From contig JALWQC010000475.1 of the NCBI GenBank assembly GCA_027080755.1, positions 316-10,696 of the forward strand: a stretch of DNA of 10,381 nt, given 5' to 3'. This document shows positions 2,982-4,913 of this stretch, piece by piece. The notes beneath the pieces are model-generated. The model was not told where the DNA came from, did not search any database, and saw only the letters and a program-made list of their open reading frames with translations. Position 1 is the first letter of the stretch. The number at the start of each line of letters is the position of its first letter. The translations under genes were made by a program, and so were the position numbers. The stretch comes from Paracoccaceae bacterium (GTDB lineage Bacteria > Pseudomonadota > Alphaproteobacteria > Rhodobacterales > Rhodobacteraceae).

Positions 2982-3152
2982 TTTTCTAACACATAAGTAG
3001 TGCATTTACCGCATACCAGCCATGCAACAAATGAATACCTAAGCTATTAACCGCTTCCTTGCAAGGCCTCATTGCCTGTTCATGTAGGGGTTTCCCACAA
3101 TATTCCAACCAAATGGTTAAAAAAATATGGAGAAATATTCACAAATCGGCCC
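2982..3152. other. AT-rich divergent intergenic segment, no gene seen
   Basis: This stretch between the two divergent promoters is far richer in A and T than its surroundings and has no convincing reading frame. It contains a 10-base perfect palindrome CCTTGCAAGG (3057-3066) and a spaced AATAT/ATATT repeat (3124-3139). Either could be a regulator site for leuA or the divergent gene, but neither is beyond chance in a segment of this length and composition. Confidence 0.4.
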
Positions 3153-3180
3153 TTTATCTTTGATTTTGTGCCGTTATAGT
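3153..3180 (+). promoter_or_regulatory. Candidate promoter of the leuA leader
   Basis: TATAGT (3175-3180) matches the -10 consensus at five of six positions. The best -35 is weak: TTTATC (3153-3158, 16-base spacer). The stronger-looking TTGATT at 3160-3165 is only 9 bases from the -10 and cannot pair with it. A start 5-9 bases after the -10 would fall at 3185-3189, and the leader peptide ATG begins at 3189, so its mRNA would have almost no 5' untranslated region. Confidence 0.5.
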
Positions 3181-3188
3181 GCCGATCC

Positions 3189-3275
3189 ATGATTATAGAC
3201 GCGCATATCACCCCCTGCCTGACCGCTGCCTCGGCTGCCGGTCTGTCTGCGCTTCTACTTCTTAGCAGCCTCTGA
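3189..3275 (+). CDS. Leucine-rich leader peptide of leuA (attenuator, leuL-like)
   Basis: An ATG-to-TGA frame of 28 codons directly upstream of leuA. Seven codons are Leu (residues 11, 19, 22, 23, 24, 25, 28), including four in a row in the end sequence SALLLLSSL. The run uses CTT, CTA, CTT, CTT, whereas CTG dominates the neighbouring genes; slowly read codons would make the ribosome more sensitive to low charged tRNA-Leu. The stop TGA (3273-3275) lies in the 5' arm of the following hairpin. There is no Shine-Dalgarno sequence before the ATG, and the predicted transcript start is within a few bases of it, so it may be translated as a leaderless mRNA, as known for the trpL leader peptide of some rhizobia. 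Leader peptides rich in the end-product amino acid are established attenuation devices for leu operons; this example is inferred from sequence. Confidence 0.85.
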   Translation: MIIDAHITPCLTAASAAGLSALLLLSSL

Positions 3276-3344
3276 GCGTGCCGGGAATGACGGCGCGCGC
3301 GCTCAGAGGATAGTCCACGCGCCCAAAACCCCGATTGCTAAGGA
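3259..3344 (+). promoter_or_regulatory. Predicted Shine-Dalgarno sequestering stem of leuA
   Basis: Bases 3259-3268 (TTCTTAGCAG: the last two Leu codons of the run and what follows) pair with 3335-3344 (TTGCTAAGGA) over ten positions, eight Watson-Crick and two G-U. The right arm contains AAGGA (3340-3344), the leuA ribosome binding site, 6 bases before the ATG at 3351. The pairing encloses the 3269-3309 hairpin and abuts it without a gap on the 5' side, so the two helices could stack. A ribosome held on the Leu codons would cover the left arm and free the leuA site. The pairing is seen directly; the regulatory role is inference. Confidence 0.6.
3269..3309 (+). promoter_or_regulatory. Attenuator hairpin overlapping the leader stop codon
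   Basis: CCTCTGAGCG (3269-3278) is perfectly complementary to CGCTCAGAGG (3300-3309). The stem continues with a G-U pair, a two-base bulge and GCCG/CGGC around the loop GGAATGA, giving about 15 pairs. It begins inside the leader peptide frame and includes its stop codon, so a ribosome stalled at the Leu run would prevent it from forming. The bases after it (ATAGTCCACG) hold no T run, so it does not look like an intrinsic terminator. Its 3' arm has an alternative partner: GGCGCG (3292-3297) with CGCGCC (3318-3323). Confidence 0.8.
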
Positions 3345-3350
3345 AAACAC

Positions 3351-4913
3351 ATGACACAATCCGAAAAAACCGCGTCCGAAGAGGGCCGCGTAATTATATT
3401 CGACACCACCCTGCGCGACGGCGAGCAAAGCCCCGGTGCCACCATGTCCCATGATGAAAAGCTGGAGATCGCCGAGCTGCTCGACGATATGGGCGTGGAC
3501 ATCATAGAGGCCGGGTTTCCCATCGCCTCCGAAGGGGATTTCGAGGCGGTGCGCGACATTGCCAACCGTTCGAAAAACGCGGTGATCTGCGGGCTGGCCC
3601 GATCCTCTATCAAGGATATCGACCGCGCCGGCGAGGCCCTGAAAGGCGCGCGCCAGTCGCGGATCCACACCTTTATTTCCACCTCGCCGCTGCACATGAA
3701 ATACAAGCTGAAGATGGAGCCGGCCGCCGTGCTGGAGGCCATCGAAGCCTCGGTCAGCCGGGCGCGCAGCCACACCGACAACGTCCAGTGGAGCCCCGAG
3801 GACGGCACCCGCACGGAACATGATTTCCTGTGCCGCTCCGTGGAAACCGCGATCAAGGCCGGCGCGACCACCATCAACATTCCCGACACCGTCGGCTATA
3901 CCGTGCCTAACGAAAGCGCCGACCTGATCCGCATGTTGCTGGAACGGGTGCCCGGCGCCGACGAGGTGATTTTCGCCACCCATTGCCACAACGACCTGGG
4001 CATGGCGACCGCCAACGCGCTGGCCGCCGTGGCCGCCGGTGCGCGCCAGATCGAATGCACGATCAACGGTCTGGGCGAACGCGCCGGCAACGCCGCCCTG
4101 GAAGAGGTGGTGATGGCCATGCGCGTGCGCAACGATGTCATGCCCTGGCACACGGGGGTCGATTCCACAAAGATCATGAACCTCAGCCGGCGCGTGTCGG
4201 CCGTTACCGGTTTTCCGGTGCAATACAACAAGGCGATCGTGGGCAAGAACGCCTTTGCCCATGAAAGCGGCATCCATCAGGACGGGATGCTGAAGCATGC
4301 CGGCACCTACGAAATCATGCGCCCCGAGGACATCGGCCTGACCGAAACCAATCTGGTGATGGGCAAGCATTCGGGCCGTGCGGCGCTGCGCTCCAAACTG
4401 GAAAATCTGGGCTACGAGCTGGGGGAAAACCAGTTGAAGGACGTCTTTGTGCGTTTCAAGGAACTGGCCGACCGCAAGAAGGAAGTCTACGACGAGGACC
4501 TGATCGCCCTGATGAGCGCGGACTCCAGCGACACCGACCACATCCAGGTGAAATTCCTGCGGGTGATCTGCGGCACGGAGGCCCCGCAATCCGCCGATCT
4601 GACGCTGGTTGTCGATGGCGAAAGCCATCAGGTCACGGCCACGGGCGACGGTCCGGTGGACGCGGTTTTCAACGCCATCAAGATGGTTTTCCCGCACGAG
4701 GCGCGCCTGGCGCTCTATCAGGTGCATGCGGTGACCGGCGGCACGGATGCGCAGGCGACGGTATCGGTGCGCATGGAGGAAGACGGCAAAATCGTCACCG
4801 GCCAGTCCTCGGATACGGATACGGTTGTGGCCTCGGCCAAGGCCTATGTCAGCGCGCTGAACAACCTGATTGTGCGGCGCCAGAAGACCGCGCCGGGTGC
4901 CGCCAAACACTAG
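3351..4913 (+). CDS. leuA: 2-isopropylmalate synthase
   Basis: The 520-residue product is a full-length bacterial type LeuA, which condenses acetyl-CoA with 2-ketoisovalerate in the first committed step of leucine synthesis. The TIM-barrel domain opens with FDTTLRDGEQSPGA (D18, R22, D23), followed by HCHNDLG (H211, H213) and INGLGERAGNAALEE (N247). D18, H211, H213 and N247 match the divalent metal ligands of the family, with the expected spacing. After the linker comes the C-terminal regulatory domain (roughly residues 390-510, with TGDGPVDAVFNAI and GQSSDTDTVVASAKAYVSALN), which binds leucine for feedback inhibition in this family. AAGGA sits 6 bases before the ATG and is predicted to be masked by the leader RNA. 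It has its own terminator, so it is a single-gene unit behind the attenuator. The other leu genes are elsewhere. Confidence 0.97.
   Translation: MTQSEKTASEEGRVIIFDTTLRDGEQSPGATMSHDEKLEIAELLDDMGVDIIEAGFPIASEGDFEAVRDIANRSKNAVICGLARSSIKDIDRAGEALKGARQSRIHTFISTSPLHMKYKLKMEPAAVLEAIEASVSRARSHTDNVQWSPEDGTRTEHDFLCRSVETAIKAGATTINIPDTVGYTVPNESADLIRMLLERVPGADEVIFATHCHNDLGMATANALAAVAAGARQIECTINGLGERAGNAALEEVVMAMRVRNDVMPWHTGVDSTKIMNLSRRVSAVTGFPVQYNKAIVGKNAFAHESGIHQDGMLKHAGTYEIMRPEDIGLTETNLVMGKHSGRAALRSKLENLGYELGENQLKDVFVRFKELADRKKEVYDEDLIALMSADSSDTDHIQVKFLRVICGTEAPQSADLTLVVDGESHQVTATGDGPVDAVFNAIKMVFPHEARLALYQVHAVTGGTDAQATVSVRMEEDGKIVTGQSSDTDTVVASAKAYVSALNNLIVRRQKTAPGAAKH

Follow-up and report, generated by a model that had tools for sequence, protein, structure and literature searches.

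Leucine codons of a short leader reading frame pair with the leuA start region in Rhodobacterales and probably form a leucine-responsive attenuator of translation initiation

The DNA analysed here (the window; 10,381 nt of contig JALWQC010000475.1, assembly GCA_027080755.1, from a Paracoccaceae bacterium) carries a short leader ORF whose 3′ end reads CTT CTA CTT CTT AGC AGC CTC TGA, followed by an ORF that we take to be leuA, a name based on its sequence and also the one used in a first-pass annotation made from the DNA letters (Table 1). A Shine–Dalgarno sequence, AAGGA, lies at 3340–3344, six bases 5′ of the leuA ATG at 3351, and the leader region is single-copy in its own genome. An Rfam scan of the window, with E values up to 1, returned no leader family at the leader. 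Elsewhere in the window, a sub-threshold Rfam match to STnc370 (E 0.26) falls at 2554–2616, a segment at the end of the ORF 2290–2583 that resembles an intrinsic terminator, with its hairpin and T-run.

Table 1. Coordinates of the features discussed, numbered from the first base of the window
Feature	Position	Strand	Basis
Putative −35 element, CTTTAT	3152..3157	+	Inferred from the aligned place of a conserved T-rich element
Putative −10 element, TATAGT	3175..3180	+	17 bases 3′ of the −35 element; alignment of relatives
Leader ORF, 28 aa, MIIDAHITPCLTAASAAGLSALLLLSSL, apparently leaderless	3189..3275	+	ORF; recurring ends in relatives
Sensor run of four Leu codons, CTT CTA CTT CTT	3252..3263	+	Sequence
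Helix C, 5′ arm (Leu codons and AGCAG), TTCTTAGCAG	3259..3268	+	Fold; comparative tests
Helix A, 5′ arm, including the leader stop, CCTCTGAGCG	3269..3278	+	Fold; comparison
Helix B, 5′ arm, GGCGCG, in the loop/upper part of hairpin A	3292..3297	+	Covariation GGTGC:GCACC
Helix A, 3′ arm, CGCTCAGAGG	3300..3309	+	Fold; comparison
Helix B, 3′ arm, CGCGCC	3318..3323	+	Covariation
Helix C, 3′ arm, including the leuA Shine–Dalgarno AAGGA, TTGCTAAGGA	3335..3344	+	Sequence; fold
leuA (2-isopropylmalate synthase)	3351..4913	+	ORF; close relatives

The leader is widespread among relatives of the source organism. By script, 72 of 80 named leuA loci yielded a leader with a Leu run, and a C-terminus like LLLL(S/T/I)(R/C/S)L recurs among these leaders together with an M..HI start. 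A covariance model built from the leader end and helix A of 54 rows, with helix C left unused in its building, hit all 390 genomes examined from the order (the genome under study included) and all 140 genera, with one match per genome; across the class it matched no more than 11 of 289 genomes, four of them from the family of the source organism. In 159 of 171 newly fetched loci leuA is the first gene 3′ of the leader; 11 (two of which are one locus) have a cupin-like gene there and in one the first gene is unassigned, these gene names resting on short motifs. The cupin-like gene (M..INLAEKL) lies between leader and leuA in L011, L141, L160, L170, L192, L195 (the same as L239), L237, L238, L240, L245 and L249, and in the three longer loci inspected (L170, L192 and L195) it is followed by leuA.

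For the comparisons below, a set of 215 rows was assembled from 57 named loci, the window and 157 new loci, membership of the Rhodobacterales resting on database taxon labels or on an order-restricted search. Eight of the 80 named loci (L011, L022, L041, L053, L061, L064, L071 and L075) were dropped because they gave no usable leader/leuA pair, although leader and hairpin are nonetheless visible in L011, L022 and L041; a further 15 (L005 and 14 others) were set aside as odd or as not Rhodobacterales. From the 171 new loci, seven of other orders, six duplicates and L225 (the locus with the unassigned first gene) were removed. At the leuA genes of L053 and L061, labelled Rhodobacteraceae/Paracoccaceae, the script found no leader and a strict pattern found no stop hairpin within the available flank.

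The leader is probably leaderless, with a predicted transcript start at about 3187–3189, roughly at its own AUG. A consensus promoter scanner run over 3000–3400 reported no promoter; the proposal rests on the alignment of relatives, in which a T-rich element holds a fixed place about 36 bases 5′ of the leader ATG (93% of 84 rows have T at −35) and in 78 of the 84 the best −10-like hexamer starts between −16 and −12 relative to the ATG. These are the rows, out of 121, with a recognizable M..HI start; 37 are without one and the start of L037 was not found, a few leader starts look wrong (L004 and L044), and L059 and L086 are one sequence.

The first-pass annotation had proposed that the last Leu codons and the bases after them pair with the leuA ribosome-binding site over ten positions, and this helix (helix C, 3259–3268 with 3335–3344) is confirmed by the sequence, with eight Watson–Crick and two G–U pairs; all ten appear in both the minimum-free-energy and the centroid folds. 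The 201-base fold exceeds its shuffles only moderately in stability (z −1.79, with 7 of 200 shuffles equally good), and barring 3335–3344 from pairing costs 7.7 kcal/mol. Dinucleotide shuffling of a 44-base stretch on the leuA side gave a run of ten standard pairs once in 2000 trials and a helix of equal score 12 times in 2000, but CTT and CTC codons are inherently complementary to a purine-rich Shine–Dalgarno sequence, so that the match is partly built in and it is the comparative tests that carry weight.

Since the place of the 3′ arm varies, a MAFFT alignment was not used for counting pairs; we relied instead on alignment-free swap tests, in which the 18 bases before the last leader codon were paired with the stretch from helix A to the start of the first gene, either their own or a foreign one. 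In the 157 new genomes, none of which had been used in spotting the pattern, the mean duplex energy was −13.84 kcal/mol with the own stretch against −10.95 kcal/mol with foreign ones, and 0 of 5000 permutations, which keep relatedness in, were as good. The same result (0 of 5000) was obtained with 63 rows having distinct cores and with the 58 named rows, while a control arm taken from an earlier part of the leader gave no signal (225 of 2000 permutations as good). The first-gene starts in these tests were picked by Shine–Dalgarno strength and some are wrong; 17 were revised for the later analysis of arm position. At least seven exact Watson–Crick pairs in a row are found in 100 of the 215 rows, against an expectation of 15.6 from shuffles and 13.6 from foreign windows, and in 58 rows there are not even six. 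Row by row, no more than 31 of 215 own arms rank in the top 5% against foreign arms, as is expected where many rows share one core.

The changes between the two arms are matched. GCTAAG occurs downstream in 57 of 109 rows with the core CTTAGC and in 1 of 88 rows with the other tabulated cores; CGTAAG accompanies the core CTTACG in 6 of 12 rows (0 of 185 otherwise), GCTTAG accompanies CTAAGC in 5 of 15 (3 of 182), and CAGCAG accompanies a CTGCTG in the leader in 7 of 28 (3 of 187). The synonymous choice between CTT and CTA agrees with the choice between TAAG and TTAG in 62 of 64 scorable rows (CTT with TAAG 47, CTA with TTAG 15, mixed 2). On a LeuA tree of 119 rows, of which 55 were excluded from the CTT/CTA comparison for having both 3′ motifs or none, the Leu codon changes six times; three independent pairs lie on supported branches, on average 2.9 of them changing in the same direction and none in the opposite, a number too small for a sign test to reach p 0.05. 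For the AGC trait, 11 tree pairs gave 5.1 in the same direction, none opposite and 5.9 without difference (median p 0.0625). On this comparative evidence helix C is under selection, its pairing being kept with matched compensatory changes. Such changes are what the first-pass annotation had named as the test of its proposal, and its view that the Leu codons serve both in coding and in pairing with the leuA start region is supported by the swap tests, the exact runs and the matched synonymous changes alike.

Its further point, that the arm covers the Shine–Dalgarno sequence itself, holds in the window and for a part of the relatives: in 136 strong helices, the last base of the 3′ arm lies at −14 or nearer to the gene start in 54, at −15 to −24 in 67 and further away in 15, so that 82 end upstream of −14. 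All 10 rows in which the cupin-like gene comes first place the end of their best helix between −4 and −17 relative to the cupin start, two of these helices being within the best 5% against foreign arms and the other eight not; in L011 the helix, judged by eye, is likewise 5′ of the cupin start. Helix C thus moves with the first gene, be it leuA or the cupin-like one, which speaks for control of translation.

Inside helix C the predicted fold of the window nests a hairpin, helix A, that is 10–12 positions long in 201 of the 215 rows. A second pairing, helix B, joins GGCGC in the loop of A to a GCGCC lying 4–11 bases 3′ of A in 207 of 215 rows, and its arms covary: GCACC is present in 12 of 18 rows with GGTGC and in 10 of 186 rows with GGCGC. 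In the swap test helix B reached z 10.6; the z of 15.7 for helix A carries a bias, since the 3′ arm entered the test as whichever stretch paired best with the 5′ arm of the same row. Judging by the sequences, helix B may be an alternative to the upper part of A, or may form an H-type pseudoknot with the lower part of A; the loop crossing such an A/B pseudoknot has at most five bases in 56 of 215 rows, which is short for ten pairs.

Together with the Leu-run leader, a hairpin overlapping the stop codon and an alternative helix resemble the pairing logic of a classical attenuator, and cysS of Rhodobacterales has a leader, uORFC-8-2, for which a terminator-type structure is predicted in the published text (PMC8632094). 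We have thus considered transcription attenuation, with A or B being or guiding an intrinsic or Rho-dependent terminator and helix C an antiterminator or by-product, and find it unlikely. Among the features of the classical trp/leu attenuators, the Leu-codon leader peptide is present, whereas a terminator hairpin with a U-tract before the structural gene is lacking in nearly all rows. At least five T in the eight bases after A are found in 2 of 215 rows, and after B in 1 of 215, and any eight-base stretch with at least six T before the first gene in only 7 of 215; the near absence of U-tracts in these 215 rows speaks against an intrinsic terminator before leuA. Moreover, helix C precedes the start of whichever gene comes first, for which a terminator would have no need.

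It is quite improbable that A, B and C together form the binding site of a protein, with the Leu codons belonging to the structure only. Helix A is indeed highly conserved, the ten pairs of the window recurring identically in 96 of 215 rows, and the text of the paper on the actinobacterial LEU element upstream of leuA (Seliverstov et al., 2005; PMC1262725) cites Streptomyces mutants as counter to codon-dependent control. Mutations in the leuA leader of Streptomyces had some effect according to that paper's background section, and mutations of the Leu codons had none according to its conclusion. Against a protein site in Rhodobacterales stands the conservation of leucine itself: codon −12, the last of the run, encodes Leu in 215 of 215 rows, and the last eight leader codons include four to six Leu in 159 of 164 new rows.

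Which leucine codon is used is likewise constrained. At the position of 3261–3263, that is, codon −12, CTT is found in 141 rows and CTA in 70 (211 of 215 together), CTC in three and CTG in one, while CTG is common at the remaining codons of the run in the position table of the 215 rows and makes up 133 of the 171 codons for Leu in five further ORFs of the window, where CTT (10 of 171) and CTA (1 of 171) are rare. The first-pass annotation had held that the match needs CTT and would be broken by CTG; the codon at the core is indeed CTG only once in 215 rows, but CTG is possible in principle, as the CTGCTG/CAGCAG rows indicate. Pairing alone does not explain why CTC is avoided as the run's final codon, and better sensing by rare codons and the demand for pairing may together account for the choice at the core. 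That the Leu codons are rare-codon sensors and nothing else, the match to leuA being the built-in likeness of CTT/CTC to an anti-Shine–Dalgarno sequence, would suit both the rarity of CTT and CTA and the leaders' avoidance of CTG as well as CTC at the last run codon, an avoidance not demanded by pairing alone, but is very hard to reconcile with the four matched motif combinations given above, with the pairing of the AGC after the run and with the swap tests.

We consider it likely that the leader is a leucine-responsive attenuator of leuA translation initiation, a reading in which we infer the stalling, the response to leucine, the effect on initiation and the transcript start. Transcription would start at the leader AUG itself, and a ribosome would translate the 28 codons. 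By default, the last Leu codons and AGC would pair with the leuA ribosome-binding region, enclosing hairpin A with the stop codon (and helix B), and leuA would be poorly initiated. When Leu-tRNA is short, the ribosome would stall in the Leu run and mask the 5′ arm of helix C, so that leuA would open; with leucine plentiful the run would be crossed fast, the ribosome would leave at the stop and helix C would re-form. Helix B may lock the inner part once the ribosome is at the stop.

A simple accessibility model, which folds only the RNA downstream of the ribosome and was applied to 195 rows, is consistent with the claim of the first-pass annotation that a stalled leader ribosome frees the leuA start: within the model, the start region opens as the A site nears and enters the Leu run. 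The openness of positions −22 to −5 before the first gene is 48–50% when the leader carries no ribosome or the A site is at least 33 bases before the stop, 52–56% once the A site reaches −30 and −27, and 60–65% from −24 on. With the A site at −21 the mean is 0.623, compared with 0.485 with no ribosome, and 111 of 195 rows are more open by over 0.1 while 9 are less so; in the window itself openness rises from 0.42 (A site at −27) to 0.64 (−21, the start of the Leu run). The model also bears out a caveat raised in that annotation, in that the start region is still open with a ribosome at the stop; since it stays so until the ribosome leaves, repression needs fast release and sparse ribosomes. 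Mutation in silico gave a mean opening of 0.074 when the run was changed to CTG (195 rows), 0.030 for the core codon alone (194 rows) and 0.008 for an upstream Leu codon (111 rows), although in the window changing the upstream Leu codon (0.37 to 0.64) does nearly as much as changing the core codon (0.69).

One feature of a translational attenuator, leader bases pairing with a downstream ribosome-binding region, is found by sequence comparison and by folding. In translational attenuation of the ermC/cat type, a stalled leader ribosome frees a sequestered Shine–Dalgarno sequence and the inducer is an antibiotic; the freeing by a stall is shared with the device proposed here, in which the trigger would instead be the charge state of the tRNA decoding the pairing codons.

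The first-pass annotation had regarded the arrangement as undescribed, and as a principle this does not hold. As described in the text of Seliverstov et al. (2005; PMC1262725), the LEU element likewise has a uORF with a Leu run directly before leuA (in some of the genomes studied here a cupin-like gene lies between) and a base stem in which the Leu run is paired to the leuA Shine–Dalgarno sequence, as in the window and as far as the 54 of 136 strong helices ending at −14 or nearer go. It has a pseudoknot or alternative hairpin inside the base stem, to which the covarying helix B, with its possible H-type pseudoknot, might correspond. The LEU element belongs to Actinobacteria and the present leader to Alphaproteobacteria; here the helix is mostly the last Leu codon with AGC, the arm often lies just upstream of the Shine–Dalgarno sequence and the stop codon is inside hairpin A. 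The text of that paper considers codon-dependent control unlikely, proposes a binding protein and leaves the mode of regulation open. In the open-access literature searched we recognized no account of this leader in Alphaproteobacteria. We regard the leader as an alphaproteobacterial variant of the LEU-type principle, and what we did not find in print is the taxon, the scale and the evidence from covariation.

Other systems share some elements with the leader. The cysS leader uORFC-8-2 (PMC8632094) is, by its published description, from the same order and has a short uORF with cognate codons for which ribosome-mediated attenuation is proposed, but it precedes cysS, not leuA, and has a predicted intrinsic terminator with a U-run; leuA does not occur in the main text of that paper. 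The leaderless trpL of Sinorhizobium meliloti, as portrayed in PMC7298713 and PMC10117765, is also a leader peptide at the transcript 5′ end in an alphaproteobacterium, but responds to Trp and is a transcription attenuator with a terminator. The polycysteine leaderless sORFs of mycobacteria (Canestrari et al., 2020), as summarized in a review (PMC9031893), are leaderless uORFs with codon-dependent attenuation of the downstream gene's translation, with Cys in place of Leu and in another phylum.

If the proposed attenuation of leuA initiation is correct, the first enzyme of leucine synthesis would stand under such a device across a whole order. The same bases would be under three constraints (to encode leucine, to be slow codons and to pair with the start of the next gene), through which synonymous codon choice becomes readable. 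A testable, codon-based answer would also be available to the question of regulation left open in the text on the LEU element (PMC1262725).

Beyond the order the helix C signal is weak. Applied to 56 loci of other alphaproteobacteria, the script gave a leader in 45, a few of these loci being Rhodobacterales-like; ends of the form (L/R)L..P and a stop hairpin like CCCCTGA...TCAGGGG recur among these leaders. The helix C swap test gave no signal in 14 named loci of other alphaproteobacteria (1856 of 5000 permutations as good) and a weaker one (z 3.7) in a wider set of 45 rows, which holds three genomes twice and shares L030, L039 and L074 with the 215 rows. We would suggest only tentatively, and regard as doubtful, that most or all Alphaproteobacteria have one ancient leaderless leader, its Leu codons being both sensor and lock at leuA initiation and its stop hairpin able to turn into a pseudoknot, and that this would be the same architecture as the LEU element, both being opened through their codons as the present covariation would imply. 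As a separate observation, leader ends of the LRL..P type, frequent in other alphaproteobacterial genomes, place an Arg codon (often CGA) between Leu codons, as if arginine might be sensed too; loci of this type upstream of leuA are L196, L200, L202, L262, L264, L266, L267, L269, L271–L273, L275, L280, L283 and L285.
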